Shown piece after piece: positions 13,726 through 58,853 of a DNA stretch of 64,000 nt. This stretch comes from Diadophis punctatus similis (taxonomy: Eukaryota; Chordata; Lepidosauria; Squamata; Dipsadidae), in assembly GCA_023053685.1 (NCBI GenBank), contig JALIGW010000022.1:2425001-2489000 (forward strand). The letters are read 5' to 3'. Position 1 is the first letter of the stretch. Each line of letters begins with the position of its first letter. The translations under genes were made by a program, and so were the position numbers. Under the pieces are notes generated by a model. It made no database searches. It was not told where the DNA came from and saw nothing but the letters and a program-made list of their open reading frames with translations.

Positions 13726-13776
13726 ATGCATCTCCTTTTAATCTTCGCTTTGACTTTTACTCTTTCTGCACAGCAG
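13726..13776 (+). CDS. Candidate signal-peptide first exon
   Basis: An ATG in GGAGATGC context opens MHLLLIFALTFTLSAQQ, a textbook hydrophobic signal peptide, and then meets a CAG|GTGAGG donor in phase 0. A TATA-like GGATAAAG lies about 55 bases upstream. No second exon of a secreted protease or other secreted family was seen before the L1 insertion. The next phase-0 acceptor of a real coding exon in the window is unit 1 of the galectin array at 20814. It could be the start exon of that gene, an orphan exon of a lost gene, or chance. Confidence 0.35.
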
Positions 13777-18467: not shown

Positions 18468-18765
18468 AGGAAAGGAAAGGAAAGGGGGGAAGGGAGGGGA
18501 AGAAAGGAAAGGGGGGAAGGGAGGGGAGGAAAGGAAAGGAAAGGGGGAGGAGAGGAAAGGTGGAAAAAGAAGGGGGGGAGGAGAGGAGAGGAAAGGAAAG
18601 GAAAGGGGGAGGAGAGGAAAGGTGAAAAAGAAGGGAGGGGAGGAAAGGAAAGGGTGGAAGGGAGGGGAAGAAAGGAAAGGGGGGAAGGGGAGGGGAGGAG
18701 AGGAAAGGAGGAATGGAATGGAATGGAAAGGAAAGGGGGGAAGGGAGGGGAGGGGAGGGACTATA
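18468..18765. repeat. Purine-rich GGAAA/GGGGA satellite-like repeat
   Basis: About 300 bases are almost pure purine on the + strand, as irregular GGAAAGG and GGGGAAGGGAGG units. Such tracts can form triplexes. The long Lys/Gly/Glu and Pro/Ser frames across it are artefacts of composition. Confidence 0.9.
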
Positions 18766-19059
18766 GCTACAGCTCTGGAATATGGGACTGACTTTCCCAC
18801 CAACATCAGCAAGCCACCGTCAGTCTGCCCGTCTTTGTTTTCCTTCATTCAGATTGACCAGGCTTCTTGAGAAAAGGAACACAAAAGAGGTTTCCAGACT
18901 TTGTGCCTGGACCAGGCACTTTCTCTCGGGTCTCCCACCTGGAGGCCTCGCAGAAGCAAACAGGCCCGAAAGGCAGCTGAGCCCCCCCAGTGGGATTTAA
19001 AATTATGAATTTGGTGGTCCCTGGGGTCCAAAAGGTTGGAGACCCCTGTTGTAGACGAC

Positions 19060-20045: not shown

Positions 20046-20813
20046 GTATAGGTCAAGGATTACCTATAACTGCTCTAGTAACAGTATCTGGCAAGTCTGT
20101 CACAATGGATGTTTTCCTATAAAACAGAAAAAATATGATTTCTGATTTTAATGGTTACATAGATTATAGAAAGAACAAAATTATGCTGTAGTAATAAAGT
20201 AAGAGGAAAAATTATAATTGCATTTATAACTACAGTAAAATAAATTGGAAGCTACTTTATCTCTTTTCTATTTTATTTCTTTTCTTGCATTTTTAGTTTT
20301 TTCTGTGATTTCCCATTTTCTTACTTTATATTAATTTGTGCTAGCTGTACCTTCCTTTAAAAAAATATTTAATAAAATTTTACATTAAAAATGTATAAAA
20401 AGAATCATACCCATCTTAATTTGCCCCCATCCCTCCCTTTATCTTCGGTGGGGCTTGTCTGAGACTTTTTTTACATGACTTTCTTGGGTGGGGCTGAAGC
20501 CCCCATTAAGTGACCATTGCATTTAACGGCTCTTCTGTAATGTTCCAGGACTCCAAAGTTTAGCCCTGAGAGATACACACATTCCCTTCTATGGCATAAT
20601 GAGTTGCTTTGTAACTGCTGTAGAAGAAGAAGATCTGATGTCATTTATTAAACTCCCAATTAGTTTTGTGTTTCTATTTCTATTGTTCTCTGCTCTTTTT
20701 ACCTTGTTTCGTCTTCCTGATACAAGGGACGGGCTGTGGTTGGCCGGTTTGAAAGTCAAAGTTGTGTTTTGCAATAAAGTCAATGCTTTGGCTCATCATT
20801 TTCTGTCTTCCAG
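20046..20813. other. AT-rich sequence before the array; no exon seen
   Basis: The last 100 bases (from about 20715) match the region just upstream of the first CRD exon of gene 1 (shared GGGCTGTGGTTGGC / GAGTTGTGGTTGGC text). Unit 1 therefore keeps the ancestral 5' intron. No start-codon exon was found here. Confidence 0.6.
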
Positions 20814-22363
20814 GCTCTCCCTTACCATCAACCTCTCCCTGATGGACTCCATCCTGGGATGTCTGTATATGTGCAAGGCACAGTGCCCCAAAACGCCAAA
20901 AGGTAATGTTCTTTTGGAGGCTCAAAGGAAGGGCAAGATGCTACAATATTCAAAATAATAGCAAAAAGAATATAATGTTGTTAAGAGTTGTTTATATGCC
21001 AAATTCTATGCCAAGATTAAAGCCTTTCATAGTTCCACTACCTCCTTCTTCCAACTCCAACTAAACAATGAGGGCTAGGAACTTGACTCTTCTCTTCAAC
21101 AAACACAAAACTCTTCTCTGAGATTCCTGCACCTCCCGTTTAATGTTCTTCTTCTGTTTTTCTCTCTCTCTTTCAGATTCCGGGTGGACTTTGCCTGGGC
21201 CCAGTATTACGGAGCAAACATTTCTCTCCACTTCAATCCTCGCTTTGATGAGGATAAAATTGTGCTCAACACATTTCAGGCTCACAAGTGGGGGAACGAA
21301 GAGTCTCACAAGATGCCCTTCCGAAAGGGCGAGGACTTCAAGATCATTTTCATTGTCAATGAGGCTGAATACCAGGTTGGTACACGTGACAGAGGCTCCT
21401 TTGGGACTTAAAGTACCTCTTTGTTTAAAATACAAAATTCAGCACTCATCTTGAATAAGTCACAAAGGTATTTAATACCAACTTTCCCAACTTCATATCT
21501 TCCGAACAGAGTTTAAGTGATGCACTGATCTCTATAGTGATAGTTGGGACCAGAAATTTAGTCAATAAGAAAGGTGGTCACTAAGTGAAACTATGATTAT
21601 GTTTATGCTCAAATTTCAGCTTTTCCTGTCTTACAGTTCTATGAAACTTATAAATTCTAGAATTTGTCATAAAGTTAATATTTTATCCCTGCAGTAACTG
21701 CAGTCACTAAAAAAGGATAACATAAACCTCATTGGAAAACATTTTCTTCAAGGGCAGGGGTCGGCAACCTTAAACACTCAAAGAGCCACAAAGGCCCTAA
21801 CCGGAAGCCCCCAATTCAATTCTGGAGCTAACCAGAAGTCCGGTTCCCCCACCATAGAGTCTTCTCCTAGCGCGGTGTCCATTTTCCTCTACCAGTCCTA
21901 ACCAAAAGCCCTATCAATTGTGGAGCTCACCGGAAAACCCGCCCCTTGCCATAGAGTCTCCTCCTTACATGCCCTGCTTCCCCCCCTACGCCAACTAGAA
22001 GCTCCTCTCAAAATTTTGGTGCCAACCGGCGACAGGGAGCCGCAACAGAGGGATGAAATAGCCACATGCAGCTCCAGAGCCGCAGGTTGATGACCCCTGT
22101 TGTAGGGGGAAAAATGGGTACCAGTGAAATAATGTGTTCCTGACAAAATAAACAGGGTTTTCCTGCCAAAAAAAACCACACAATGATCCCAAGTGAGACT
22201 TGATCCCTTTGGATTTGTCCTCTGACAGATAATGGTGAATGGGAAGCTCTTCTGTACCTACAAGCACAGAATGCCACCACAAATGGTCCAGGTCATCAAA
22301 ATCAGCGGAGACCTGGACCTGCAATTTCTGAACGTGACCGGAGAAGCAATAATGAGGAATATG
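20814..22363 (+). CDS. Array unit 1 CRD (ancestral-like)
   Basis: Exons 20814-20902, 21177-21375, 22229-22363. It differs from all other units: it starts [12 protein letters not shown], carries [16 protein letters not shown], and keeps IVLNT and WGNEES. Binding residues H, N, R, N, W and E are therefore present and only the last R is S. The third exon ends [12 protein letters not shown] and has GDLDLQ. The upstream intron is of gene 1 type, so this is the original N-CRD of the gene. Confidence 0.9.
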
Positions 22364-25300
22364 GTAAGGATTTGCTATCACAGTCAGCACTTTCTGATTC
22401 TTGTTCTCTCTTTAGGAATTGATTCTGGGTTGGTTCAATCCCCAAGCAGCCACTTTTTCATTCTGCTTTCTGTTCGCTCTTCTCATACACCTTTCTTGAG
22501 AATGACTTGCCCTATGTGTCCTCAAGTTGCTGATTTCGTTCACGGTTTCCTGTCTTCCAGACTCTCCCTTATTATCAACCTGTCCCTGCTGGACTCCATC
22601 CTGGGATGTCTGTATATATGCAAGGCACTGTGCCCACACACACCAACAGGTAACGTTCCTCAGGGGGCTCACAGAAAGGGCAAGATGCTCCTTGCTCAAA
22701 AGATAATAAGGTTATTATATTGTTCGGGATAGTTTATATAATCCAAATTCTGGTCCAAGGTTAAAACTTTTCTAAATTCTTTGGATAGTTCCACTTCCTG
22801 CTTCTTCCAACTCCAACTAAGCCATGAGGGCTGGGAGCTTGATTCTTCTCTTCAAGCAAAAACATAGCAACCTACAGATTCTAGCTTCAGGACAAAGGAG
22901 AAGGAAGGGGCAGAGGTCTACTCTGAGATTCCTGCACTTCCCGTTTAATATTCTTCTTCTGTTTTTCCTCTCTCTCTTTCAGATTCCAGGTGGACTTTGC
23001 CTGGTCCCAGCATGACGGAGCCGACATTTCGCTCCACTTCAATCCTCGCTTTGATGAGGATATAATTGTGCTCCACACATTTCAGGCTCACAAGTGGGGG
23101 AACCAAGAGTCTCACAAGATGCCCTTCCGAAAGGGCGAGGACTTCAAGATCATTTTCATTGTCAATGAGGCTGAATACCAGGTTGGTACACGTGACAGAG
23201 GCTCCTTTGGGACTTAAAGTGCCTCTTTGTTTTAGCCACAGAATTCAGCACTCATCTGGAATAAGTCACAAGCTTTCCCAACTTCATATCTTCCGAACAA
23301 AGTTTATGTGATGCACTGATCGCTATAGTGATAGTTGGGTCCATAAGAAATGTGGTCACTAAGTGAAACTATGATTGTGATTATAATCAAATTTCAGCTT
23401 TTCTTTTCTTACAGTTCTATGAAACTTATAAATTCTAGAATTTGTCACAAAGTAAATATTTTATCCCTGCAGTAACTGTAGTCACTAAATAAGGATATAT
23501 ACCTCATTGGAAAACATTTTGTTCTAGGACAGGGGTCGGCAACCTTAAACACTCAAAGAGCCACAAAGATCCTAACCGGAAACCCCCAATTCAATTCTGG
23601 AGCTAACCAGAAGTCCAGTTCCACCACTATAGAGTCTTCTCCTAGCGCGGTGTCCTTTTTCGTCTACCAGTTGTAACTGAAAGCCCTATCAATTGTGGAG
23701 TTGACCGGAAAATCTGCCCCTTACCATAGAGCAGTGGTGGCCAACCTTAAGCATACCATCCGCCAAATTTTTTCGCAGATGAGGTCAGATCCGCCATTAT
23801 TTATTTATTTATTTATTTGGTCATTTTTGTATGCCGCCCCACTCCCGTAGGACTCAGGGCGGCCATACAACTCAAGCACGTTTTTTACCTTCTTACTTTT
23901 GCGTTTGGGGTTGTAAAATAGGGATAGGGGTAGGATCTGCTTTGCTTAAGGGAAGAAAAGGAATAACTCAATCACGCAATTCAATTAATTAATTTACGCC
24001 ATTTCCAAAGACACGTTTATTGGAGCACCAATCTACAATAGTTAGAAATAATCTCTTGGACGAGAGTACTTTCACAAACAATACAAAACGGTTTTCCTGA
24101 TGAACTTGATATAAATAGCAACTCATTTTCCCACTGTTCATTGAATTCACGCTTACAATCACTTTCGTGGCTTCTTTTGGTCATTTTCTTTTGCACTGTA
24201 ATGGATAACAGGAAATTAAGCATAGGCTGTACGAACTGAACTGAGATCAGTTTTGTGTTGAAAATATTAAGATGGGTTCAGTTATGACACCTATTTTAAA
24301 AAAATAAGTAGGCGCAAGGAATCCATCACTATATGGCTAATTTGGCTCTGGCAGATCTCCTTTTCGTAATCTGGTTCCCTCTGAAAATTGCTTACCATAT
24401 TAATGGCAACAACTGGATCTATCACAGGGGTGGCCAAACTATGGTTCTTTGAGGATCTGTGGACTTCAACTCCCATAACCAGGAATTATGGGAGTTGAAG
24501 TCCACAGGTCCTCAAAGAACCATAGTTTGGCCACCCCTGAGTCATACATAGAATATATGATTTTAGTCTGGTGGAACTAATAGGATCATTCATTACTTTA
24601 CAGATCTTTCCTTTTTTGTTTCTTCAATGAAAATTGTTTAGTTAAATAGGGCAGACTTTTAGCTCAGTGCTTAGTAATGGTGCAAAGCCAGTTTTAAGGC
24701 CAGCTGGGAAGAAATAAAATATTACAAATGTCCATTTAACTATTATATATCAGAAATGATTAATTTAAAAAAGAATAGTATGAGATTGCTTATATTTCTA
24801 GAATATTGTTTTTAATATTAGCTCTATTTATATTCATAGGGCTACCTCTTATGTTTTCTTTGGAAGTAAAATTACTACAAATGGAGCATGTGCAATATGC
24901 TTATGCACCTCTTTCAGTAATTTACATTATGAAAATAATATAGCAATATAAAATGTATATCAATAATAATAATGTTCTATCAAGTCATTGGTTTATATTT
25001 AAAAGTTTGTATATGTATTGAGATTTTAAAATCTTCCCTCTAATTTCCAGTGAGTTTTTTTAGTGATACTAAAAAATTGCTGGAACAAGAAATTGGCAAT
25101 ATATTTTGGATGTTTTAGAAGAGAATGTAATTATGGGGAAGTCCTGTGCAAAATACTTGTTGGATTCTTTTATGGAAACATGTACTGCTCCATTCTTTTT
25201 ATGCCATGCCTCAGTGTACAAAGGTATTGGGTAATTTCAAACCCCATACTGCACTCAAAACCCCATACTTTCACAAGAACAACAATGAATTAAAAGAAAC

Positions 25301-28300
25301 TCACCAAGCGCAGGTTTCCAAAGACGTCCCTTCTCTGAAGCTTGCTCTGCAGCAACGGCAGTTTTCCCAAGAAGTCCCTTCTCTGAAGCTTGCTCCTCAG
25401 AAACGGGTGGCTGGTGTAAATTGATCCCACTCCAGACGCTCCACAGGGGGCCGGCGCTTGTGACTGACTACTTCCTCCTCTGCTATTCGCTTCTATGACT
25501 CGTGGACTTCAACTCCCAGACTTCCTGAGCTAGCATGATTGGCTCAGGAATTCTGGGAGTTGAAGTCCACAAGTCATAGAAGAGCCAACTTTGTCGCTTC
25601 GTTTTGTCACTGCCGGAGTTTGAACTGCGCGCTCTCTCCAGAATTAAGCAGGAAGGGGATCGGACAATAAGGTTAGAATCAGTTTCGCTCGCTAAAATTT
25701 AAAGTGATTCCGACCTTCTTATTGTCCGATCCCCTTCTTCCTGCATAATAAGCGTCAGCCTTTTCTGTCTGTTGGATGATTGCAATGCGCCACTTGCAAT
25801 CATCCAATGCGCCACGTTTGGCGCATGCGCCACGGTTTGGCCACCCCTGCCATAGAGTCTCCTCCTTACATGCCCTGCTTCCCCCCTCCGCCAACTGGAA
25901 GCTCCTCTCAAAATTGTGGTGCCAACCAGCGACAGGGAGCATCAACAGAGGGATGAAAGAGCCACATGCAGCTCCAGAACCACAGGTTGCTGACCCCTGT
26001 TGTAGGGGGAAAAATGGGTACCAGTGAAATAATGTGTTCCTGACAAAATAAACAGGGTTTTCCTGCGAAAAAAAAACCGATGATCCCAAGTGAGACTTGA
26101 TCCCTTTGGATTTGTCCTCTGACAGATAATGGTCAATGGGAAGCTCTTCTGTATCTACAAGCACAGAATGCCACCACAAATGGTCCAGGTCATCAAAATC
26201 AGCGGAGACGTGGACGTGCAATTTCTGAACGTCATCGGAGAAGCAATAATGGGGAAAATGGTAAGGATTTGCTATCACAGAGTCAGCACTTTCTGATTCT
26301 TGTTCCCTCTTTAGGAATTGATTCTGGGTTGGTTCAATCCCCAAGCAGCCACTTTTTCATTCTGCTTTCTGTTCGCTCTTCTCATACACCTTTCTTGAGA
26401 ATGACTTGCCCTATGTGTCCTCAAGTTGCTGATTTCGTTCACGGTTTCCTGTCTTCCAGACTCTCCCTTATTATCAACCTGTCCCTGCTGGACTCCATCC
26501 TGGGATGTCTGTATATATGCAAGGCACTGTGCCCACACACACCAACAGGTAACGTTCCTCAGGGGGCTCACAGAAAGGGCAAGATGCTCCTTGCTCAAAA
26601 GATAATAAGGCTATTATGTTGTTCGGGATAGTTTATATAATCCAAATTCTGGTCCAAGGTTAAAACTTTTCTAAATTCTTTGGATAGTTCCACTTCCTGC
26701 TTCTTCCAACTCCAACTAAGCCATGAGGGCTGGGAGCTTGATTCTTCTCTTCAAGCAAAAACATAGCAACCTACAGATTCTAGCTTCAGGACAAAGGAGA
26801 AGGAAGGGGCAGAGGTCTACTCTGAGATTCCTGCACTTCCCGTTTAATGTTCTTCTTCTGTTTTTCTGTCTCTCTTTCAGATTCCAGGTGGACTTTGCCT
26901 GGTCCCAGCATGACGGATCCGACATTTCTCTCCACTTCAATCCTCGCTTTGATGAGGATATAATTGTGCTCCACACATTTCAGGCTCACAAGTGGGGGAA
27001 CCAAGAGTCTCACAAGATGCCCTTCCGAAAGGGCGAGGACTTCAAGATCATTTTCATTGTCAATGAGGCTGAATACCAGGTTGGTACACGTGACAGAGGC
27101 TCCTTTGGGACTTAAAGTGCCTCTTTGTTTTAGCCACAGAATTCAGCACTCATCTGGAATAAGTCACAAGCTTTCCCAACTTCATATCTTCCGAACAGAG
27201 TTTATGTGATGCACTGATCGCTATAGTGATAGAGACCAGAAATTTATTCAATAAGAAATGTGGTCACTAAGTGAAACTATGATTGCGATTATAATCAAAT
27301 TTCAGCTTTTCCTGTCTTACAGTTCTATGAAACTTATAAATTCTAGAATTTGTCGCAAAGTTAATATTTTATCCCTGCAGTAACTGCAGTCACTAAAAAA
27401 GGATAACATATACATCATTGGAAAACATTTAGTTCTAGGGCAGGGATCGGCAACCTTAAACACTCAAAGAGCCACAAAGGTCCTAACCGGAAGCCTCCCA
27501 TTCAATTCTGGAGCTAACCAGAACTTCAGTTACCCCACCATAGAGTCTTCTCCTAGCGCGGTGTCCTTTTTCCTCTACCAGTCCTAACCGAAAGCGCTAC
27601 CAATTGTGGAGCTGACCGGAAAACCCGCCCCTTGCCTTAGAGTCTCCTCCTTACATGCCCTGCTCCCCCCCTACGCCAACTAGAAGCTCCTCTCAAAATT
27701 GTGGTGCCAACCGGCGACAGGGAGCCGCAACAAAGGGATGAAAGAGCCACATGCGGCTCCAGAACCACAGGTTGCTGACCCTTGTTGTAGTGGGAAAAAT
27801 GGGTACCTGTGAAATGATGTGTTCCTGACAAAATAAACAGGGTTTTCCTGCCAAAAAAACCCCACGATGATCCCAAGTGAGACTTGATCCCTTTGGATTT
27901 GTCCTCTGACAGATAATGGTCAATGGGAAGCTCTTCTGTACCTACAAGCACAGAATGCCACCACAAATGGTCCAGGTCATCAAAATCAGCGGAGACGTGG
28001 ACGTGCAATTTCTGAACGTGACTGGAGAAGCAATAATGGGGAATAAGGTAAGGATTTACTATCACAGTCAGCACTTTCTGATTCTTGTTCCCTCTTTAGG
28101 AATTGATTCTGGGTTGGTTCAATCCCCAAGCAGCCACTTTTTCATTCTGCTTTCTGTTCGCTCTTCTCATACACCTTTCTTGAAAATGACTTGCCCTATG
28201 TGTCCTCAAGTTGCTGATTTCGTTCACGGTTTCCTGTCTTCCAGACTCTCCCTTATTATCAACCTGTCCCTGCTGGACTCCATCCTGGGATGTCTGTATA

Positions 28301-31300
28301 TATGCAAGGCACTGTGCCCACACACACCAACAGGTAACGTTCCTCAGGGGGCTCACAGAAAGGGCAAGATGCTCCTTGCTCAAAAGATAATAAGGCTATT
28401 ATGTTGTTCGGGATAGTTCATATAATCCAAATTCTGGTCCAAGGTTAAAACTTTTCTAAATTCTTTGGATAGTTCCACTTCCTGCTTCTTCCAACTCCAA
28501 CTAAGCCATGAGGGCTGGGAGCTTGATTCTTCTCTTCAAGCAAAAACATAGCAACCTACAGATTCTAGCTTCAGGACAAAGGAGAAGGAAGGGGCAGAGG
28601 TCTACTCTGAGATTCCTGCACTTCCCGTTTAATATTCTTCTTCTGTTTTTCCTCTCTCTCTTTCAGATTCCAGGTGGACTTTGCCTGGTCCCAGCATGAC
28701 GGAGCCGACATTTCGCTCCACTTCAATCCTCGCTTTGATGAGGATATAATTGTGCTCCACACATTTCAGGATCACAAGTGGGGGAACCAAGAGTCTCACA
28801 AGATGCCCTTCCGAAAGGGCGAGGACTTCAAGATCATTTTCATTGTCAATGAGGCTGAATACCAGGTTGGTACACGTGACAGAGGCTCCTTTGGGACTTA
28901 AAGTGCCTCTTTGTTTTAGCCACAGAATTCAGCACTCATCTGGAATAAATCACAAGCTTTCCCAACTTCATATCTTCCGAACAGAGTTTAAGTGATGCAC
29001 TGATCTCTATAGTGATAGAGACCAGAAATTTATTCAATAAGAAATGTGGTCACTAAGTGAAACTATGATTGTGATTATAATCAAATTTCAGCTTTTCCTG
29101 TCTTACAGTTCTATGAAACTTATAAATTCTAGAATTTGTCACAAAGTTAATATTTTATCCCTGCAGTAACTGCAGTCACTAAAAAAGGATAACATATACA
29201 TCATTGGAAAACATTTAGTTCTAGGGCAGGGGTCGGCAACCTTAAACACTCAAAGAGCCACAAAGGTCCTAACCGGAAGCCTCCCATTCAATTCTGGAGC
29301 TAACCAGAAGTTCAGTTACCCCACCATAGAGTCTTCTCCTAGCGCGGTGTCCTTTTTCCTCTACCAGTCGTAACCGAAAGCCCTATCAATTGTGGAACTG
29401 ACCGGAAAACCCGCCCCTTGCCTTAGAGTCTCCTCCTTACATGCCCTGCTTCCCCCCTCCGCCAACTGAAAGCTCCTCTCAAAATTGTGGTGCCAACCAG
29501 CGACAGGGAGCCTCAACAGAGGGATGAAACAGCCACATGCGGCTCCGGAACCACAGGTTGCTGACCCCTGTTGTAGGGGGAAAAATGGGTACCTGTGAAA
29601 TGATGTGTTCCTGACAAAATAAACAGGGTTTTCCTGCCAAAAAAAAAAAAAAAACACGATGATCCCAAGTGAGACTTGATCCCTTTGGAATTGTCCTCTG
29701 ACAGATAATGGTCAATGGGAAGCTCTTCTGTACCTACAAGCACAGAATGCCACCACAAATGGTCCAGGTCATCAGAATCAGCGGAGATGTGGACGTGCAA
29801 TTTCTGAACGTCATCGGAGAAGCAATAATGGGGAAAATGGTAAGAATTTGCTATCACAGAATCAGCACTTTCTGATTCTTGTTCCCTCTTTAGGAATTGA
29901 TTCTGGGTTGGTTCAATCCCCAAGCAGCCACTTTTTCATTCTGCTTTCTGTTCGCTCTTCTCATACACCTTTCTTGAGAATGACTTGCCCTATGTGTCCT
30001 CAAGTTGCTGATTTCGTTCACGGTTTCCTGTCTTCCAGACTCTCCCTTATTATCAACCTGTCCCTGCTGGACTCCATCCTGGGATGTCTGTATATATGCA
30101 AGGCACTGTGCCCACACACACCAACAGGTAACGTTCCTCAGGGGGCTCACAGAAAGGGCAAGATGCTCCTTGCTCAAAAGATAATAAGGCTATTATGTTG
30201 TTCGGGATAGTTTATATAATCCAAATTCTGGTCCAAGGTTAAAACTTTTCTAAATTCTTTGGATAGTTCCACTTCCTGCTTCTTCCAACTCCAACTAAGC
30301 CATGAGGGCTGGGAGCTTGATTCTTCTCTTCAAGCAAAAACATAGCAACCTACAGATTCTAGCTTCAGGACAAAGGAGAAGGAAGGGGCAGAGGTCTACT
30401 CTGAGATTCCTGCACTTCCCGTTTAATGTTCTTCTTCTGTTTTTCCTCTCTCTCTTTCAGATTCCAGGTGGACTTTGCCTGGTCCCAGCATGACGGAGCC
30501 GACATTTCGCTCCACTTCAATCCTCGCTTTGATGAGGATATAATTGTGCTCCACACATTTCAGGATCACAAGTGGGGGAACCAAGAGTCTCACAAGATGC
30601 CCTTCCGAAAGGGCGAGGACTTCAAGATCATTTTCATTGTCAATGAGGCTGAATACCAGGTTGGTACACGTGACAGAGGCTCCTTTGGGACTTAAAGTGC
30701 CTCTTTGTTTTAGCCACAGAATTCAGCACTCATCTGGAATAAGTCACAAGCTTTCCCAACTTCATATCTTCCGAACAGAGTTTATGTGATGCACTGATCG
30801 CTATAGTGATAGAGACCAGAAATTTATTCAATAAGAAATGTGGTCACTAAGTGAAACTATGATTGTGATTATGATCAAATTTCAGCTTTTCCTGTCTTAC
30901 AGTTCTATGAAACTTATAAATTCTAGAATTTGTCACAAAGTTAATATTTTATCCCTGCAGTAACTGCAGTCACTAAAAAAGGATAACATATACATCATTG
31001 GAAAACATTTAGTTCTAGGGCAGGGGTCGGCAACCTTAAACACTCAAAGAGCCACAAAGGTCCTAACCGGAAGCCTCCCATTCAATTCTGGAGCTAACCA
31101 GAAGTTCAGTTACCCCACCATAGAGTCTTCTCCTAGCGCGGTGTCCTTTTTCCTCTACCAGTCGTAACCAAAAGCCCTATCAATTGTGGAACTGACCGGA
31201 AAACCCGCCCCTTGCCTTAGAGTCTCCTCCTTACATGCCCTGCTTCCCCCCTCCGCCAACTGGAAGCTCCTCTCAAAATTGTGGTGCCAACCAGCGACAG

Positions 31301-49300: not shown

Positions 49301-52300
49301 GTTTTCCTGCCAAAAAAACAAACAAACACGATGATCCCAAGTGAGACTTGATCCCTTTGGAATTGTCCTCTGACAGATAATGGTCAATGGGAAGCTCTTC
49401 TGTACCTACAAGCACAGAATGCCACCACAAATGGTCCAGGTCATCAGAATCAGCGGAGATGTGGACGTGCAATTTCTGAACGTCATCGGAGAAGCAATAA
49501 TGGGGAAAATGGTAAGAATTTGCTATCACAGAATCAGCACTTTCTGATTCTTGTTCCCTCTTTAGGAATTGATTCTGGGTTGGTTCAATCCCCAAGCAGC
49601 CACTTTTTCATTCTGCTTTCTGTTCGCTCTTCTCATACACCTTTCTTGAAAATGACTTGCCCTATGTGTCCTCAAGTTGCTGATTTCGTTCACGGTTTCC
49701 TGTCTTCCAGACTCTCCCTTATTATCAACCTGTCCCTGCTGGACTCCATCCTGGGATGTCTGTATATATGCAAGGCACTGTGCCCACACACACCAACAGG
49801 TAACGTTCCTCAGGGGGCTCACAGAAAGGGCAAGATGCTCCTTGCTCAAAAGATAATAAGGTTATTATATTGTTCGGGATAGTTTATATAATCCAAATTC
49901 TGGTCCAAGGTTAAAACTTTTCTAAATTCTTTGGATAGTTCCACTTCCTGCTTCTTCCAACTCCAACTAAGCCATGAGGGCTGGGAGCTTGATTCTTCTC
50001 TTCAAGCAAAAACATAGCAACCTACAGATTCTAGCTTCAGGACAAAGGAGAAGGAAGGGGCAGAGGTCTACTCTGAGATTCCTGCACTTCCCGTTTAATG
50101 TTCTTCTTCTGTTTTTCCTCTCTCTCTTTCAGATTCCAGGTGGACTTTGCCTGGTCCCAGCATGACGGAGCCGACATTTCGCTCCACTTCAATCCTCGCT
50201 TTGATGAGGATATAATTGTGCTCCACACATTTCAGGCTCACAAGTGGGGGAACCAAGAGTCTCACAAGATGCCCTTCCGAAAGGGCGAGGACTTCAAGAT
50301 CATTTTCATTGTCAATGAGGCTGAATACCAGGTTGGTACACGTGACAGAGGCTCCTTTGGGACTTAAAGTGCCTCTTTGTTTTAGCCACAGAATTCAGCA
50401 CTCATCTGGAATAAGTCACAAGCTTTCCCAACTTCATATCTTCCGAACAGAGTTTATGTGATGCACTGATCGCTATAGTGATAGAGACCAGAAATTTATT
50501 CAATAAGAAATGTGGTCACTAAGTGAAACTATGATTGTGATTATAATCAAATTTCAGCTTTTCCTGTCTTACAGTTCTATGAAACTTATAAATTCTAGAA
50601 TTTGTCACAAAGTTAATATTTTATCCCTGCAGTAACTGCAGTCACTAAAAAAGGATAACATATACATCATTGGAAAACATTTAGTTCTAGGGCAGTGGTC
50701 GGCAACCTTAAACACTCAAAGAGCCACAAAGGTCCTAACCGGAAGCCTCCCATTCAATTCTGGAGCTAACCAGAAGTTCAGTTACCCCACCATAGAGTCT
50801 TCTCCTAGCGCGGTGTCCTTTTTCCTCTACCAGTCGTAACCAAAAGCCCTATCAATTGTGGAACTGACCGGAAAACCCGCCCCTTGCCTTAGAGTCTCCT
50901 CCTTACATGCCCTGCTTCCCCCCTCCGCCAACTGAAAGCTCCTCTCAAAATTGTGGTGCCAACCAGCGACAGGGAGCCTCAACAGAGGGATGAAACAGCC
51001 ACATGCGGCTCCGGAACCACAGGTTGCTGACCCCTGTTGTAGGGGGAAAAATGGGTACCTGTGAAATGATGTGTTCCTGACAAAATAAACAGGGGTTTCC
51101 TCCCAAAAAAAACCCATGATGATCCCAAGTGAGACTTGATCCCTTTGGATTTGTCCTCTGACAGATAATGGTCAATGGGAAGCTCTTCTGTACCTACAAG
51201 CACAGAATGCCACCACAAATGGTCCAAGTCATCAAAATCAGCGGAGACGTGGACGTGCAATTTCTGAACGTCATCGGAGAAGCAATAATGGGGAAAATGG
51301 TAAGGATTTGCTATCACAGAGTCAGCACTTTCTGATTCTTGTTCCCTCTTTAGGAATTGATTCTGGGTTGGTTCAATCCCCAGGCAGCCACTTTTTCATT
51401 CTGCGTTCTGTTCGCTCTTCTCATACACCTTTCTTGAAAATGACTTGCCCTATGTGTCCTCAAGTTGCTGATTTCGTTCACGGTTTCCTGTCTTCCAGAC
51501 TCTCCCTTATTATCAACCTGTCCCTGCTGGACTCCATCCTGGGATGTCTGTATATATGCAAGGCACTGTGCCCACACACACCAACAGGTAACGTTCCTCA
51601 GGGGGCTCACAGAAAGGGCAAGATGCTCCTTGCTCAAAAGATAATAAGGCTATTATGTTGTTCGGGATAGTTTATATAATCCAAATTCTGGTCCAAGGTT
51701 AAAACTTTTCTAAATTCTTTGGATAGTTCCACTTCCTGCTTCTTCCAACTCCAACTATTTATTTATTATTATTTATTTTTATTTATTTTATTTTGTTATT
51801 CTTATATGCCGCCCAACTCCCGAAGGACTCAGGGCCGAAGGACTTAGTCCCGAAGGACTAAGCCATGAGGGCTGGGAGCTTGATTCTTCTCTTCAAGCAA
51901 AAACATAGCAACCTACAGATTCTAGCTTCAGGACAAAGGAGAAGGAAGGGGCAGAGGTCTATTCTGAGATTCCTGCACTTCCCGTTTAATGTTCTTCTTC
52001 GGTTTTTCCTCTCTCTCTTTCAGATTCCAGGTGGACTTTGCCTGGTCCCAACATGACGGAGCCGACATTTCGCTCCACTTCAATCCTCGCTTTGATGAGG
52101 ATATAATTGTGCTCCACACATTTCAGGCTCACAAGTGGGGGAACCAAGAGTCTCACAAGATGCCCTTCCGAAAGGGCGAGGACTTCAAGATCATTTTCAT
52201 TGTCAATGAGGCTGAATACCAGGTTGGTACACGTGACAGAGGCTCCTTTGGGACTTAAAGTGCCTCTTTGTTTTAGCCACAGAATTCAGCACTCATCTGG

Positions 52301-55300
52301 AATAAGTCACAAACTTTCCCAACTTCATATCTTCCGAACAGAGTTTATGTGATGCACTGATCGCTATAGTGATAGTTGGGTCCATAAGAAATGTGGTCAC
52401 TAAGTGAAACTATGATTGTGATTATAATCAAATTTCAGCTTTTCTTTTCTTACAGTTCTATGAAACTTATAAATTCTACAATTTGTCACAAAGTAAATAT
52501 TTTATCCCCGCAGTAACTGTAGTCACTAAATAAGGATATATACCTCATTGGAAAACATTTTGTTCTAGGACAGGGGTCGGCAACCTTAAACACTCAAAGA
52601 GCCAAAAAGGTCCTAACCGGAAGCCCCCCATTCAATTCTGGAGCTAACCAGAAGTTCAGTTACCCCACCATAGAGTCTTCTCCTAGCGCGGTGTCCTTTT
52701 TCCTCTACCAGTCCTAACCGAAAGCGCTACCAATTGTGGAGCTGACCGGAAAACCCGCCCCTTGCCTTAGAGTCTCCTCCTTACATGCCCTGTTCCCCCC
52801 CCTACGCCAACTAGAAGCTCCTCTCAAAATTGTGGTGCCAACTGGCGACAGGGAGCCGCAACAAAGGGATGAAAGAGCCACATGCGGCTCCAGAACCACA
52901 GGTTGCTGACCCTTGTTGTAGTGGGAAAAATGGGTACCAGTGAAATGATGTGTTCCTGACAAAATAAACAGGGTTTTCCTGCCAAAAAAAACCCACGATG
53001 ATCCCAAGTGAGACTTGATCCCTTTGGATTTGTCCTCTGACAGATAATGGTCAATGGGAAGCTCTTCTGTACCTACAAGCACAGAATGCCACCACAAATG
53101 GTCCAGGTCATCAGAATCAGCGGAGATGTGGACGTGCAATTTCTGAACGTGACCGGAGAAGCAATAATGGGGAAAATGGTAAGGATTTGCTATCACAGAA
53201 TCAGCACTTTCTGATTCTTGTTCCCTCTTTAGGAATTGATTCTGGGTTGGTTCAATCCCCAAGCAGCCACTTTTTCATTCTGCTTTCTGTTCGCTCTTCT
53301 CATACACCTTTCTTGAGAATGACTTGCCCTATGTGTCCTCAAGTTGCTGATTTCATTCACGGTTTCCTGTCTTCCAGACTCTCCCTTATTATCAACCTGT
53401 CCCTGCTGGACTCCATCCTGGGATGTCTGTATATATGCAAGGCACTGTGCCCACACACACCAACAGGTAACGTTCCTCAGGGGGCTCACAGAAAGGGCAA
53501 GATGCTCCTTGCTCAAAAGATAATAAGGCTATTATGTTATTCGGGATAGTTTATATAATCCAAATTCTGGTCCAAGGTTAAAACTTTTCTTAATTCTTTG
53601 GATAGTTGCACTTCCTGCTTCTTCCAACTCCAACTAAGCCATGAGGGCTGGGAGCTTGATTCTTCTCCTCAAGCAAAAACATAGCAACCTACAGATTCTA
53701 GCTTCAGGACAAAAGAGAAGGAAGGGATAGAGGTCTACTCTGAGATTCCTGCACTTCCCGTTTAATGTTCTTCTTCTGTTTTTCTGTCTCTCTTTCAGAT
53801 TCCAGGTGGACTTTGCCTGGGCCCAGCATGACGGAGCCGACATTTCGCTCCACTTCAATCCTCGCTTTGATGAGGATATAATTGTGCTCCACACATTTCA
53901 GGCTCACAAGTGGGGGAACCAAGAGTCTCACAATCTGCCCTTCCGAAAGGGCGAGGACTTCAAGATCATTTTCATTGTCAATGAGGCTGAATACCAGGTT
54001 GGTACACGTGACAGAGGCTCCTTTGGGACTTAAAGTGCCTCTTTGTTTTAGCCACAGAATTCAGCACTCATCTGGAATAAGTCACAAGCTTTCCCAACTT
54101 CATATCTTCCGAACAGAGTTTAAGTGATGCACTGATCGCTATAGTGATAGAGACCACAAATTTAGTCAATAAGAAATGTGGTCACTAAGTGAAACTATGA
54201 TTGTGATTATAAACAAATTTCAGCTTTTCCTGTCTTACAGTTCTATGAAACTTATAAATTCTAGAATTTGTCACAAGGTTAATATTTTATCCCTGCAGTA
54301 ACTGCAGTCACTAAATAAGGATAACATATACCTCATTGGAAAACATTTAGTTCTAGGGCAGGGGTCGGCAAGCTTAAACACTCAAAGAGCCACAAAGGTC
54401 CTAACCGGAAGCCCCCCGTTCAATTCTGGAGCTAATCGGAAGTCTGGTTCCCCCACCATAGAGTCTCCTCCTAGTGCGGTGTCCTTTTTCCTCTACCAGT
54501 CCTAACCCAAAGCCCTATCAATTGCGGAGCTGACCAGAAAACCCGCCCCTTGCCATAGAGTCTCCTCCTTACATGCCCTTCTTCCCCCCTCCGCCAACTG
54601 GAAGCTCCTCTCAAATTTGTTGTGCCAACCGGCGACAGGGAGCTGCAATAGAGGGATGAAAGAGCCACATGCGGCTCCAGAGCCGCAGGTTGCTGACCCC
54701 TGTTGTAGGGGGGATAATGGGTACCAGTGAAATGATGTGTTCCTGACGAAATAAACAGGGTTTTCCTGCCCAAAAAAAACGATGATCCCAAGTGAGACTT
54801 GATCCCTTTGGATTTGTCCTCTGACAGATAATGGTCAATGGGAAGCTCTTCTGTACCTATAAGCACAGAATGCCACCACAAATGGTCCAGGTCATCAGAA
54901 TCAGCGGAGACGTGGACCTGCAATTTCTGAACATGATCGGAGAAGCAATAATGGGGAAAATGGTAAGGATTTGCTATCAGAGAGTCAGCACTTTCTGATT
55001 CTTGTTCCCTCTTTAGGAATTGATTCTGAGTTGGTTCAATCCCCAAGCAGCAACTTTCTCATTCTGCTTTCTATTTGATCTTCTCCTTAGAGGGTGTAGC
55101 TAGCATCTAGGCATGGGTTGTCCTCGTCCATTCATCCAATAGGACTGAGTATGTAGTATTCTGTGTATAAGACACACCCAAATTTTAACCCTCTTTTAAG
55201 TGGGGAAGAAAGTGGATGTTATACTTCAAAAATATGGTAATTCCCAAATTATTCCATTTGAGTTCGTGTAAATGACAAATCACCAGATGTAGCCTTAAAG

Positions 55301-58300
55301 AGGGGCAGGCTTATCGAAGCACAAACCTCGGGAATTTACAACCCACGCACCCCCACCTTTTGGTCTCTGCCTCCCAGCAATTTGCCTCCTTGCAGCAAAC
55401 AGCGCACAGTCTGATTAGCACAAGCTTGTCGGCCTTCCGACCATCAGCTGTTTCAAGTGCAGGCAGGAATAGGCTATGGCAGTGATGGCGAACCTGTGGC
55501 ATGCGGAGCCATATCTGCCGGCACGCGAGCCGTTGCCCTAGCTCAGCTCCAGTGCGCATGTATGTGCCCGCCAGCTGATTTTTGGCTCACGCGGAGGCTC
55601 TGGGAGGACGATTTTGGCCTCTGGAGGGCCTCCAGGGTGGCGGGGGTGGAGCGTTTTTGCCCTCCCCAAGCTCCAAGAAAGCCTCTGGAGCCTGGGGAGG
55701 GCAAAAAATGGGCCTACCAGGCCTACTGGAAGTCGGGAAACGGGGAGTGGGATGGGTCGCGCACGCATGCACAGGGGGGTGGGGCGAGTGAGGGGCTTTG
55801 AATTATGGGTGTGGGCACGCACACACGTGCGATAGCGCGCACGTGCACTATTTCGGCACTCGAGGAAAAAAAGGTTCGCCATCACTGGGCTATGGCAATC
55901 CCTGCAGTCTGAAACTATTAGCTGCTTGTGCTAATCAGGCTGACTAAATCTGAAAGTGAAACGGGCTGTTTGCTGTTTGCTGCAAAGAGGTAGAGGTAAC
56001 TGGGAGGTAGAGGCAGTTTTTTATTTTCTTATGCTAATCAGGCTGTGCTGAAACTGGCTGTTTGCTGCAAGGAGGTAAGTCAATAACTATAAATGCCTAT
56101 AGAATGTTCAAATTATTAGACTTATTTTTTAAAGACTGCTTTATTATTGTTCTAGACAACTTAACAAAATGAAGAAGCTTTTTAAAATAAATGCTTGATC
56201 TGAAGAGGCCCAGTGCTATTGTATCTTCTTTTAAATAGCAGAGAATAATGTATACTTTCAGAAAGCCACATCAATTTTAACAGCATCTGTAGAAGTATAG
56301 TCTGAAATGTAATAGTGTCCTGTTGTAGTATTAAGATAAGGCAGCTGAGTTAGACCCTGATTTAGTCATGTTTGGAGTAGATCTATTTAAATAATTGGGA
56401 GGAGTTAGTGTGACGACATTTAAAAAAACTTTCTGGCATTAATATACTGCCATAATGTACATTTCTCCAATTCTTTGCTATTTCTATGGGTCAGGCACAC
56501 ATGCACAGAAATACACAGCAAACAGTGTATATCATCTGTACTGTTTGCTGTTTGCTGCAAGGAGGCAAACTGCTGGAAGGCAGAGGCAGATTTTTTTCTG
56601 TCTCTGCCTCCCAGCAATTGTGGTAAAAAATGCTACCGGTTCAGGTGAACCGGTATAGCCGACGATCAGCTGTGCGACGATCAGCTGTGCCACACGATCT
56701 AGATTAGCTAGAAAGCAGGATTTCTAGCTAATCTAAATCGTGCGGCACAGCTGATCCCCACCTCGCTGTTCTACTTACCTTTGCAGACTCTGATGGCTTC
56801 AAAATGCTCCTTTTTCAGCGCTGCACAGTAGTGCCTGCGCCGCACATGTGTGCACAGTGCGCGCAAACCGAACTGGTAGCAGACTTCAGAAGATTTCACC
56901 CCTGGTTGCACGCCTGGATTTTTGGCATCTCAATTCCAGGCAGCTCCAGATGTGATGCTGGTGGAAACTGTAATCCACCACAGAAGGAGGGCAGAAAGAG
57001 TCATGTCTTGGGACAGAGGAAAACTCATGTCACCTGTCTCTCCAGGGCAGCCAGAGGAAGGAAATACATCCATGGACTTCAATATGATTGGTGGTTTCTT
57101 TTAATGAGGATTGTGAGAAACAAATGAGATCAGTTACTATATCTTGCGTTTTTGTGCATTTTTTCTGCTCTGCAGCAAGCGTCTAACTATGGGAATCCAC
57201 ATAATCCTGTCAAGGAGAGCAACCGTGATTCAGCTCTCCCTGAAAAATCTTTGCCTACACAACCTTTGCCTGGTGCCCACTTACACAATGAGTCTGTCCC
57301 CTCTGGTGCTCTTAGTTCTCAATATTCTGCTGACCCTGCATCCCCACAACCTGCCCCTGCTGCCTCTGAACGTGTGGCCCTGGTCAAACCTGACTCTACT
57401 CTCTGCACAACCTGACCATGCTGCCCCTGCACGTACCCACACTGCCTCTGCACAACATGCCCGTGCAACCCTTGCACAAGGTACCCGTGCGACCCTTGCA
57501 CAACATACCCATGCAACCCTTGCACAAGGTACCCGTGCAGCCCTTGCACAACGTACCCGTGCAACTCTTGGACAAGGTACCCATGCGGCCCTTGCACAAC
57601 CAACCCATGCGGCCCTTGCACAATGTACCCATGCAACCCTTGCACAACGTACCCATGTGGCCCTTGCACAACCAACCCATGCTGCCTCTGCACAATGTAC
57701 CCATGCAACCTTTGCACAACATACCCATGTGGCCCTTACACAACGTACCCATGCAACCCTTGCACAACGTACCCATGTGGCCCTTGCACAACCAACCTGT
57801 GCTGCCTCTGCACAACATACCCATGCAACCCTTGCACAACGTACCCATGTGGCCCTTGCACAACCAACCCATGCAGCCCTTGCACAACATACCCATGCAA
57901 CCCTTGCACAACGTACCCATGCAACCCTTGCACAACGTACCCATGTGGCCCTTGCACAACCAATCCATGCTGCCTCTGCACAACCTGACCAAGGAGCCAG
58001 CAGGGAGGCATCTCTATACAAAGGTGGTCAAAAAAATTAATATAGCTATGCAATGGATGTCTTGCCCCTATTTTACCCGGATTCCAGCAAAGAGTTTGGC
58101 TGGTTGGCTGGTGGTAATGCAAATAGGCAGGCAGTGGAGTGGACTGAAAATCCAACATGGTGCCTTATAGATATGCAAGATTCCATCTTCCATAATTTCC
58201 AACTAGCACAGCCTTGAAGAATTAAAATCTGAACCTCTTTGAAGGCTAGTGGAATAAATACCCCCTCTAGTGGAGAAGAGTGGAATTGCTTCTCCAGAGA

Positions 58301-58682
58301 GTGATTCAGAATTCCATTTCTAGCTCTCTTCTGGAAAATTGTCCTCCGGAGTTTTGGGGTGTTTTTTTTTTAATGTGGGAGCTACAACTCCCCGATTGAA
58401 GTCCCACCCCTTATGTATGGGGGGGTGCTTTTTGATTTTGATGCACCTGTGGATTATGCATCCTCCTCCCTGGAGGATTGGAAATGATCCAGATGTGTTG
58501 GTTCAGCTGTGCTAACATCCTTCCTCTCTTTCCAGCTCTCAATCCGCTGTGGCAATTATCAATTCATTGTTTATGCCAATAAGGAATACTTCTTCAGCTA
58601 TACCCATCGTTACATCCATTTCCCACAGATCAACATACTCGAGATTAGAGGAGATGTGGCCATTTCCTACATCCAATATTAA
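20814..58682 (+). CDS. LGALS4: Giant poly-CRD galectin-4-like gene: 18 tandem N-CRDs, repeat linker, partial C-CRD
   Basis: Eighteen complete three-exon N-type galectin CRDs are followed by a linker exon (57176-58022) and a last exon (58536-58682). All 54 CRD exons have canonical AG acceptors and GT donors and open frames. Each unit is 423 nt, and phase 0 at both ends lets any unit join the next. No unit has its own ATG, stop or polyA signal; the only 3' end is at 58680-58853. Spliced in full, the CRDs alone give 2,538 residues. The gene is a paralogue of the two-CRD gene at 1.6-7.0 kb, which shares the upstream intron, the last intron and the 3' UTR. Problems: no start exon is proven, the linker exon changes frame near 57.37-57.41 kb, and the C-CRD lacks its first two exons. 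It may be a real giant lectin, a set of alternatively spliced forms, or a decaying locus. The very uniform open frames favour function or very recent expansion. Confidence 0.7.
21755..22099. mobile_element. hAT MITE present in the second intron of every array unit
   Basis: It begins CAGGGGTCGGCAACCTTAAA and ends GGTTGATGACCCCTG, with GAGCCACA text near the left end and a GAGCCACATG / GAGCCGC hairpin near the right end. The flanking 8-mers are TTCAAGGG and TTGTAGGG here, and TTCTAGGG / TTGTAGGG in later units, fitting a decayed hAT target duplication. The same insertion is in all 18 units but absent from gene 1. It therefore predates amplification and postdates the split of the two genes. Confidence 0.8.
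22561..26260 (+). CDS. Array unit 2 CRD, interrupted by a hAT element in its intron
   Basis: Exons 22561-22649, 22983-23181, 26126-26260. It is the first unit with the [12 protein letters not shown] start and the IVLHT / WGNQES binding-site changes. The third exon reads FCIYKHR and [11 protein letters not shown]. The second intron is enlarged by a 2.1-kb insertion (23732-25849). Confidence 0.88.
24425..24539. mobile_element. Palindromic hAT MITE nested in the unit 2 insertion
   Basis: A hairpin with CAGGGGTGGCCAAACTATGG ends, the same family as the copy at 12659-12804. The centre is shortened and the flanking 8-mers do not match, so the target duplication has decayed. Confidence 0.75.
25499..25586. 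repeat. Inverted repeat related to the palindromic MITE
   Basis: TGGACTTCAACTCCCAGA and its complement TCTGGGAGTTGAAGTCCA form a hairpin around a short centre. It is a partial MITE without the outer ends. Confidence 0.6.
26460..28047 (+). CDS. Array unit 3 CRD
   Basis: Exons 26460-26548, 26881-27079, 27913-28047. It has [14 protein letters not shown] where other units have HDGAD, then IVLHT and WGNQES. The third exon ends [11 protein letters not shown] with an N-glycosylation sequon. The acceptor tract before exon 2 (CTGTCTCTCTTTCAG) is shared only with unit 18. Confidence 0.88.
28245..29839 (+). CDS. Array unit 4 CRD
   Basis: Exons 28245-28333, 28667-28865, 29705-29839. It carries [12 protein letters not shown] (D for A) and [17 protein letters not shown] long A-run before exon 3 is the unit's own mark. 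Confidence 0.88.
30039..31625 (+). CDS. Array unit 5 CRD
   Basis: Exons 30039-30127, 30461-30659, 31491-31625. It has [12 protein letters not shown], and the third exon keeps the NVT sequon ([12 protein letters not shown]). Confidence 0.88.
31825..33407 (+). CDS. Array unit 6 CRD
   Basis: Exons 31825-31913, 32241-32439, 33273-33407. It has [19 protein letters not shown] and NVIG. The first intron has a 6-base deletion also seen in units 11, 13 and 15. Exon 2 and the second intron match unit 8. Confidence 0.88.
33607..35200 (+). CDS. Array unit 7 CRD
   Basis: Exons 33607-33695, 34029-34227, 35066-35200. It has [19 protein letters not shown] and [16 protein letters not shown] with the NVT sequon. 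It matches unit 9 at a spacing of 3,581 bases. Confidence 0.88.
35400..36988 (+). CDS. Array unit 8 CRD
   Basis: Exons 35400-35488, 35822-36020, 36854-36988. It is a near copy of unit 6, 3,575 bases away ([11 protein letters not shown], same intron marks), but lacks unit 6's 6-base first-intron deletion. Confidence 0.88.
37188..38781 (+). CDS. Array unit 9 CRD
   Basis: Exons 37188-37276, 37610-37808, 38647-38781. It is a near copy of unit 7, with FKIIFIV, IKIS and the NVT sequon. Confidence 0.88.
38981..40574 (+). CDS. Array unit 10 CRD
   Basis: Exons 38981-39069, 39403-39601, 40440-40574. It has [12 protein letters not shown]. It alone reads VNETEYQ instead of VNEAEYQ. The third exon has [16 protein letters not shown]. 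Confidence 0.88.
40774..42361 (+). CDS. Array unit 11 CRD
   Basis: Exons 40774-40862, 41190-41388, 42227-42361. It has [12 protein letters not shown] and NVIG, with the 6-base first-intron deletion. Units 13 and 15 repeat it at exactly 3,575-base spacing. Confidence 0.88.
42561..44149 (+). CDS. Array unit 12 CRD
   Basis: Exons 42561-42649, 42983-43181, 44015-44149. It has [28 protein letters not shown] and a CCTCCCAAAAAAAACCCATG tract before exon 3. Units 14 and 16 share these marks at 3,575-base spacing. Confidence 0.88.
44349..45936 (+). CDS. Array unit 13 CRD
   Basis: Exons 44349-44437, 44765-44963, 45802-45936. Copy of unit 11 type: [20 protein letters not shown], 6-base first-intron deletion. 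Confidence 0.88.
46136..47724 (+). CDS. Array unit 14 CRD
   Basis: Exons 46136-46224, 46558-46756, 47590-47724. Copy of unit 12 type: [20 protein letters not shown]. Confidence 0.88.
47924..49511 (+). CDS. Array unit 15 CRD
   Basis: Exons 47924-48012, 48340-48538, 49377-49511. Copy of unit 11 type: [20 protein letters not shown], 6-base first-intron deletion. Confidence 0.88.
49711..51299 (+). CDS. Array unit 16 CRD
   Basis: Exons 49711-49799, 50133-50331, 51165-51299. Copy of unit 12 type: [20 protein letters not shown]. Confidence 0.88.
51499..53178 (+). CDS. Array unit 17 CRD, mosaic intron and a short insertion
   Basis: Exons 51499-51587, 52024-52222, 53044-53178. It has [12 protein letters not shown] and the NVT sequon. 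The first intron carries a 103-base insertion (51758-51860). The second intron begins with unit 2-type sequence (TTGGGTCCATAAGAAATG) and then becomes like unit 6. Confidence 0.88.
51758..51860. mobile_element. Short TTTA-rich SINE/LINE tail insertion
   Basis: The insert is a TATTTATT run joined to ATGCCGCCCAACTCCCGAAG text, also seen near 23800 and, in part, at 10670. ACTA occurs at both junctions (51754-51757 and 51857-51860), a possible target duplication. Confidence 0.6.
53378..54962 (+). CDS. Array unit 18 CRD (last full unit)
   Basis: Exons 53378-53466, 53799-53997, 54828-54962. It is more diverged: [22 protein letters not shown] for [10 protein letters not shown], and [21 protein letters not shown] and WGNQES are as in the other units. 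After the third exon the intron stays repeat-like to about 55080 and then becomes unique. Confidence 0.88.
55480..55887. mobile_element. GC-rich hAT MITE with perfect target duplication
   Basis: It begins CAGTGATGGCGAACCT and ends AGGTTCGCCATCACTG. Both flanks are GGCTATGG (55472-55479 and 55888-55895). It is GC-rich internally with no intact transposase frame. The ends and the 8-bp duplication are diagnostic of hAT. Confidence 0.92.
56637..56915. mobile_element. Interspersed element with internal hairpin
   Basis: It opens with GCTACCGGTTCAGG, contains a near-perfect inverted repeat around GCAGGA (TTAGCTAGAAA and TTTCTAGCTAA, 56705-56735), and ends near TTTCACCCCTGG. It is similar in style to the ACCGGTTC elements at 1204 and 14200. 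Confidence 0.5.
57176..58022 (+). CDS. Linker exon: Pro-rich start plus about 24 octapeptide repeats, with a frame break
   Basis: After a TCTGCTCTGCAG acceptor the phase-0 frame reads [20 protein letters not shown] and then a Pro/Ala/Ser-rich stretch, as expected of a galectin-4 linker. This frame stops at TGA 57413-57415. From 57415 the +2 frame is a tandem octapeptide array, [Q/W/L/R]PLHN[V/I/Q]P[M/V], about 24 copies to 57985. It then reads [11 protein letters not shown] and meets an AAG|GTGGTC junction in phase 0 for the last exon. The two correct-looking frames differ by one base step. The step must fall between the TGA of the repeat frame at 57367-57369 and the stop at 57415. It may be a sequence error, a true frameshift, or an unseen splice. 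Confidence 0.65.
57418..57990 (+). repeat. 24-nt coding minisatellite
   Basis: Tandem 24-nt units such as CCATGCAACCCTTGCACAAC with small variants. Because 24 is a multiple of three and no unit contains a stop, all three forward frames stay open. Only the PLHN frame joins the final galectin exon. Confidence 0.9.
58536..58682 (+). CDS. Last exon: final third of a galectin-4 C-CRD
   Basis: It has the same 147 nt as the last exon of gene 1. It encodes [28 protein letters not shown] and [14 protein letters not shown], then TAA. The intron before it matches gene 1's last intron. The exons that should carry the first strands and the WGxEER motif are missing, so this half-domain cannot form a normal sugar site alone. 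Confidence 0.85.
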   Translation, partial: LSIRCGNYQFIVYANKEYFFSYTHRYIHFPQINILEIRGDVAISYIQY

Positions 58683-58847
58683 GGGGGGTTCAAAAGACAA
58701 ACACTGGTAGAGATCTCCTTTTTTCTCCCTCTCTGCCAGGATACTCAGAGTTCTGCTGAACTGGAGTGATCTACAAAGCTCCAGTAAATCAATCAATTGG
58801 ATCAATCAGACACTTGAGAAAAATAAAGAGTATTAAGCAATGTTTTC

Positions 58848-58853
58848 AATAAA
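58848..58853 (+). terminator. PolyA signal of the poly-CRD gene
   Basis: AATAAA lies 166 bases after the stop, in a 3' UTR homologous to that of gene 1. It is the only such 3' end after the array. Confidence 0.7.

Follow-up and report, generated by a model that had tools for sequence, protein, structure and literature searches.

The question raised by this locus is whether a long run of galectin CRDs in a snake genome is a single gene, and what kind of protein such a gene would specify. The usual description of vertebrate galectins is of proteins with one or two CRDs, exported without a signal peptide. The window, by which we mean the whole stretch of 64,000 nucleotides analysed (C134:2425001-2489000), comes from an assembly of 1.78 Gb in 419 contigs, the species' own. 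We consider it fairly probable that the locus is one colubroid galectin-4-derived gene (colubroids being advanced snakes), made of a signal-peptide exon (exon X), 18 N-CRDs and a C-CRD tail, and that its product would be a secreted multivalent glycan binder.

Eighteen units in one frame

A tblastn search with peptides read from the window located 18 first (A), 18 second (B) and 18 third (C) exons on the plus strand, all between 20814 and 54962 (Table 1). They make up N-type galectin-4 CRDs, complete in 18 of the 18 units, each with three open exons; the splice dinucleotides AG or GT are present at 108 of 108 positions (six per unit). Every unit has 89 + 199 + 135 = 423 bp of coding sequence and is in phase 0 at both ends. 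The joined coding sequence of 7614 bp (2538 codons) contains no stop; the coding sequence of a single unit, with its bases shuffled, was open in 16 out of 20 000 trials. These counts bear out the sequence-only reading, which had described 18 complete CRDs of this type standing head to tail with intact splice signals. Relatives in PDB include the galectin-4 chains 2dyc and 5duu (E about 1e-33), and in the own-genome search the array's B exons scored 57-62.7 bits, over the PF00337 cut-off of 22.1 bits; C exons, among the matches listed, scored 31-34.9 bits.

Table 1. Features of the array gene, in window positions (exon joints marked by a slash)
Feature	Position	Strand	Remarks
Proposed first coding exon X	13726..13776	+	signal peptide MHLLLIFALTFTLSAQQ; phase-0 donor CAG/GTGAGG
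Unit 1	20814..22363	+	exons 20814-20902, 21177-21375, 22229-22363; sugar-site N and E kept
Unit 2	22561..26260	+	exons 22561-22649, 22983-23181, 26126-26260; long intron with PAR2 fragments
Unit 3	26460..28047	+	exons 26460-26548, 26881-27079, 27913-28047
Unit 4	28245..29839	+	
Unit 5	30039..31625	+	
Unit 6	31825..33407	+	
Unit 7	33607..35200	+	
Unit 8	35400..36988	+	2 substitutions vs unit 6
Unit 9	37188..38781	+	2 substitutions vs unit 7
Unit 10	38981..40574	+	
Unit 11	40774..42361	+	first half of 3575-bp block
Unit 12	42561..44149	+	
Unit 13	44349..45936	+	block copy 2
Unit 14	46136..47724	+	
Unit 15	47924..49511	+	block copy 3
Unit 16	49711..51299	+	
Unit 17	51499..53178	+	first intron 436 bp, about 100 bp above most units
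Unit 18	53378..54962	+	59-72 substitutions vs each of units 2-17
24-bp minisatellite	57431..57984	+	stops just before match to intron after upstream gene's second C-CRD exon
Last exon	58536..58682	+	third exon of C-type CRD, phase 0, stop TAA
Two AATAAA poly(A) signals (58822, 58848)	58822..58853	+	region homologous to upstream gene's 3' end

A copy of F2RL1 (proteinase-activated receptor 2) lies in two pieces at 24333-25230, inside the 2.9-kb second intron of unit 2 (best PDB hits PAR2), and a dispersed repeat of ~350 bp occupies 34582-34940 in the second intron of unit 7, the unit queried, being about 88-93% identical to many genome sites.

The intron leading from the last exon of one unit to the first exon of the next is 197-199 bp long in 17 out of 17 cases, and a motif scan found neither A[AT]TAAA nor TATA in any of these 17 inter-unit introns; the second (B-C) intron carries at least one A[AT]TAAA in 18 of 18 units. 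With inter-unit gaps this short and free of poly(A) and TATA motifs, the array is most simply read as one transcription unit; since unit ends are in phase 0, any number of units could be joined or skipped in frame. The earlier inference of a single gene spanning all units is well supported by these introns, by the phase-0 joints and by an Erythrolamprus protein whose incomplete model has its two units joined at the same point (P0065, see below).

Evidence for constraint on the exons is moderate, since independence of sites is assumed and a genome-wide repeat lies in the second intron of the queried unit: variable sites were rarer in exons (21/423) than in introns (129/1370) among units 2-18 (Fisher P = 0.0018), the exon and intron counts being 14 and 83 among units 3-17 (P = 0.016) and 44 and 195 among all 18 (P = 0.024). 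Indel patterns numbered 0 in exons vs 17 (units 2-18), 10 (units 3-17) and 25 (all 18) in introns; the chance of zero exon indels, if evenly spread, was 0.010, 0.068 and 0.0012, respectively. Between unit 1 and five other units pN/pS was 0.91-1.18, thus giving no sign of purifying selection between them. Pooled pN/pS among units 2-18 was 0.42; as the pairs are not independent, we relied on the exon/intron counts instead.

A block of 3575 bp occurs three times, as units 11-12, 13-14 and 15-16, and its copies differ pairwise by 1, 3 and 4 bases; units within the three copies show 0-3 base differences, and the pairs 6/8 and 7/9 show 2 each. The near-identity of units 11-16 shows that intactness owes something to recent copying. 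Divergence tends to be highest in the edge units 1, 2, 17 and 18, and the array as a whole falls into 12 unit groups at least 10 substitutions apart from one another. Near-identical two-unit blocks point to unequal crossing-over, as in human LPA kringle IV-2; as every unit is in phase 0 with 423 coding bases, CRDs could be gained or lost in this way without a frame break. The exact unit number may be variable, or affected by assembly. Human LPA kringle IV type 2 is an in-frame multi-exon domain cassette repeated in kilobase units (PMC11201333, PMC6314250). The array resembles it in having frame-neutral, multi-exon phase 0-0 units that are tandem-homogenised; it differs in that the repeated unit is a three-exon lectin domain and in that the array is known from one assembly.

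A galectin cluster and a shared candidate leader exon

In the flanks examined (C134:2280001-2430000 and 2489001-2509000) the galectin genes follow the order g0; T1, T2, g1; the array; and a further galectin from window position 64380 on. The first of these, g0, is a canonical LGALS4 whose first exon, MTYFPAPGYMPVYNP, encodes no signal peptide; an extra partial C-CRD lies behind it. Its N-CRD is identical to that of Erythrolamprus at 132/141 residues and to that of Pantherophis at 128/141. By such comparisons the window's galectins come closest to those of colubroid snakes.

Two N-CRDs and one C-CRD are found in each of T1, T2 and g1. We infer that those of g1 form one gene, that the apparent two-CRD gene at 1634-7039 is the rear of g1, and that the first N-CRD of g1 lies 2.8 kb before the window; Pantherophis P0003 has two N-CRDs and a C-CRD in one chain. 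The second-exon acceptors of the first N-CRD of T1 (C134:2332480) and of the second N-CRD of T2 (C134:2394602) look displaced or out of phase; these two CRDs may be broken or may use other acceptors. A second N-N-C galectin gene, T1-like, was seen on another large contig (C112:210197292-210209984; L026, L027). An inverted repeat of 71% identity (1662 columns) stands on both sides of the array gene, at 7393-8944 and from 63199 to 774 bases past the window end.

Before T1, T2 and g1 (C134:2298051-2422204, L010-L023) we observed a signal peptide followed by a helical domain encoded by many short exons. The AlphaFold model of Vipera P0008 has helices at low confidence there (block pLDDT 34-58, residues 21-170). 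Among the three snake proteins scanned against Pfam, the only family over cut-off for the helical domain was MgtE_N, in one of the three; WIF was over cut-off in one of the three.

One copy of exon X, which encodes a hydrophobic leader, precedes each of T1, T2, g1 and the array. The array copy is identical to those of g1, T2 and T1 at 51/51, 50/51 and 49/51 positions, and the 140 bp before it at 132/140, 131/140 and 126/140, respectively. Further upstream identity is about 60% (96/160 with g1, 96/157 with T2 and 101/160 with T1); beyond 120 bp downstream it is 234/274, 232/278 and 95/275. Exon X with its near surroundings is 94-100% identical to the two closest copies. A peptide of this type opens 7 of the 26 related proteins compared (P0001, P0008, P0009, P0010, P0019, P0021 and P0180), 25 of the 26 being from snakes. 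Pantherophis P0021 starts with exactly the T1 version of the peptide. In Naja P0019 the leader is joined directly to the first exon of an N-CRD (SAQQ/ALSYY), which is the joint proposed for the array (SAQQ/ALPYH). According to PMC10343441, a classical secretion signal is typically absent from deuterostome galectins.

Exon X of the array would be spliced to 20814, the start of unit 1. This 5' splice is uncertain, as exon X lies 7 kb upstream across LINE-like sequence and no helical-domain exons were detected before the array: the search there gave only 12 chance-level matches up to E 0.5 (the best, 0.01, in LINE-like sequence), with 9/9 exon peptides found in the control before g1, the source of most of the peptides. 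The helical domain follows the leader in six of the seven exon-X-type proteins and has genomic matches before T1, T2 and g1. As judged by eye and from repeat matches, the LINE-like sequence (14600-18200 and 19080-20030) fills much of the proposed first intron.

Two other candidates for the array's start were rejected. A g0-like first exon (MTYFPAPGY...), sought by Smith-Waterman alignment at positions 7200-14000 and 14000-20820, scored below the best of six shuffles; by tblastn the g0 first exon had only weak matches outside g0, and no convincing second copy in the 229 kb searched. A TATA-bearing segment before the second N-CRD of g1 (872-1204), common to copies at g0, T2 and the first N-CRD of g1, had no counterpart before the array, and its ATG is missing from at least one of the four aligned copies.

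The 3' end, the predicted protein and its relatives

The gene end at 58682 given in the sequence-only reading agrees with the last exon and its stop codon. The sequence around this exon is homologous to the upstream gene's 3' end, at 71% over 528 columns; Naja P0006 and Erythrolamprus P0056 have a similar last exon (FFSY...YIHFPQI). A search of 55000-58500 for C-CRD exons A and B was negative: matches up to E 50 were minus-strand chance matches only and none reached E 0.05; the predicted C-CRD of the array gene is degenerate, reduced to its last exon. Since its first two exons were not found, we rejected a plain galectin-4 with extra N-CRDs. The 24-bp minisatellite adjoins the slot expected for the second C-CRD exon. 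It was considered as a coding linker: one frame is open from 57180 to 58020, but nothing ties the minisatellite to the gene.

The model protein has 2603 residues; removal of a 15-residue leader would leave about 299 kDa. The canonical galectin sugar site reads H-N-R ... N-W-E-R, with the N and E positions contacting the sugar. In comparison with mouse galectin-6, HFNPR and W are kept in 18 of 18 units; units 2-18 have H for N and Q for E at two canonical sugar-site residues, which unit 1 keeps. The last R of the motif is S in 18 of 18 units, so that none of them carries the canonical motif in full. The sequence-only reading had mentioned neither these residue changes nor exon X, the shortened C-CRD or the block pattern. 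The galectin beta-sandwich was assessed on the close relative Erythrolamprus P0065, standing in for the array protein: its AlphaFold model (mean pLDDT 89.9, pTM 0.60) is a predicted fold of two galectin CRDs, and one of these (137 columns) superposes on the N-CRD of human galectin-4 at 1.2 A. From this model and the changed residues, the array units have very likely kept the galectin fold, and their ligand has very likely been changed or weakened. The array protein would most likely be a secreted multivalent scaffold, for which glycan cross-linking is plausible. A precedent (PMC11237159) is the glue of the tomato frog, where a one-CRD galectin binds a large glycoprotein in a cross-linked secretion.

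A close relative is P0065, with two units that fall in the array clade (support 100/99, in a tree of 24 rows with 6 of 21 inner branches well supported), are joined as GEAIMEKR/TLPYY and share the N-to-H and E-to-Q changes with array units 2-18. Its model, annotated with 268 residues, is incomplete, with an internal Met as its start and read-through of a donor at its end, and so says little for a long transcript. Identity among array units 2, 10 and 18 is 95-97%, and between them and P0065 67-70%; the two units of P0065 are 86% identical. These values fit homogenisation within species. Naja P0006 carries three or more closely similar N-CRD copies; as the two compared group with the first N-CRD of g1, this expansion appears to be independent of the array.

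The array shares with LGALS4 the exon trio and sequence of the N-CRD and the fold seen in P0065, and has the canonical gene g0 in its neighborhood; unlike LGALS4, it has 18 N-CRDs in place of one, no complete C-CRD, a proposed signal peptide and altered sugar-site residues. Nor does it have the two different CRDs, N and C type, of a tandem-repeat galectin, all 18 being N-type and the C-CRD one exon. With the snake galectins P0021, P0008 and P0180 and with T1, T2 and g1 it has in common the exon X type, galectin-4-type CRDs and the same cluster; those genes, in contrast, have two to three N-CRDs, usually an intact C-CRD, and the multi-exon helical domain.

Proteins with many galectin domains were found at greater distance. 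Galectin stretches number 18 in each of the predicted eel proteins P0121 and P0122, and 13 in each of catfish P0124 and snail P0131; none of the 58 long matches, among the 7986 candidates sharing most words, was squamate-named. The eel proteins and the catfish protein resemble the array in carrying many galectin domains in one predicted chain, but they are 28-38% identical to the query and no exon X-like start was seen among those listed. The sequence-only reading put known vertebrate galectins at one or two CRDs each; this is contradicted by these eel proteins and by a lamprey gene encoding four CRDs (PMC10343441). Thus, having many CRDs is no novelty in kind, and the number 18 is equalled by two eel proteins. 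Among the matches listed from open-licence literature, in titles and starts of abstracts, no multi-CRD snake or eel galectin was described; the open-licence matches listed, in the same parts, likewise included no signal-led snake family, no LPA-like near-identical galectin array and no changed sugar site.

Alternative readings and what the gene would mean

Could the array be one transcription unit whose protein is no longer made, a recently amplified relic of a galectin gene without C-CRD? We regard this as unlikely. The missing C-CRD exons A and B, a pN/pS of about 1 between unit 1 and five other units, and the change of two canonical sugar-site residues in 17 of 18 units would all suit a relic, and recent duplication alone could keep units 11-16 intact. 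On the other hand, stops are absent and splice dinucleotides complete in all 18 units, including the more diverged units 1, 2, 17 and 18; the 25 intron indel patterns have no counterpart in exons; and P0065, from another snake genus, retains both the changed residues and open frames. The 18-CRD gene might have some other, undetected first exon, its product being cytosolic or unconventionally secreted as other galectins are; with the X-to-unit-1 splice inferred and the neighboring g0 starting with MTYFPAPGYMPVYNP, without signal peptide, this deserves consideration, and still it appears a little less likely than a relic. A search of 229 kb gave no convincing second g0 first exon; exon X, in phase and near-invariant, has a matching place before four genes, and Naja P0019 uses its type directly before an N-CRD.

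That the unit number is in part an assembly artefact, an over- or under-expansion of identical blocks, is improbable, even with units 11-16 being three blocks that differ by 1, 3 and 4 in 3575 bases; the 12 diverged unit groups mean that a long array remains whatever the exact number, and an own-genome search with unit 7 revealed no second array (best 39 of 3489 candidates, common words skipped). Least credible of all, and in our view very improbable, is a series of separately transcribed short genes, each with one or a few CRDs. The A[AT]TAAA in the B-C intron of each unit and the annotation of P0065 as a 268-residue, two-unit protein could be taken in its favor, but 197-199 bp without the scanned motifs leaves no room for the 3' end of one gene together with the promoter and start exon of the next, and the unit joints are in phase 0.

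For the single secreted protein that we prefer, the course would be as follows. The conserved exon X would be spliced in phase 0 to the 18 head-to-tail N-type CRDs, with a short C-terminal tail contributed by the last exon of the degenerate C-CRD. Once expressed, the protein, a chain of galectin domains, would take the classical secretory route out of the cell. Unequal crossing-over would add or remove CRDs, homogenising unit number and sequence as in LPA kringle IV-2, so that individuals could differ. Its likely job would be multivalent binding or cross-linking of secreted or cell-surface glycans, with a shifted sugar specificity in units 2-18.

One could go further and suppose, tentatively and with rather less than even confidence, a colubroid family of classically secreted galectins that has here produced one copy-number-variable, 300-kDa poly-lectin with a re-tuned glycan site, serving as a gel-forming or agglutinating scaffold in secretions, in parallel with the predicted giant galectins of eels. 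The parallel with the predicted eel and catfish proteins suggests that many-CRD galectins arose more than once. If true, a galectin of 18 CRDs behind a signal peptide would stand at the extreme of galectin valency and represent a new route of galectin secretion; it would also make a lectin domain the unit of a coding VNTR, and individuals could then differ in valency itself.
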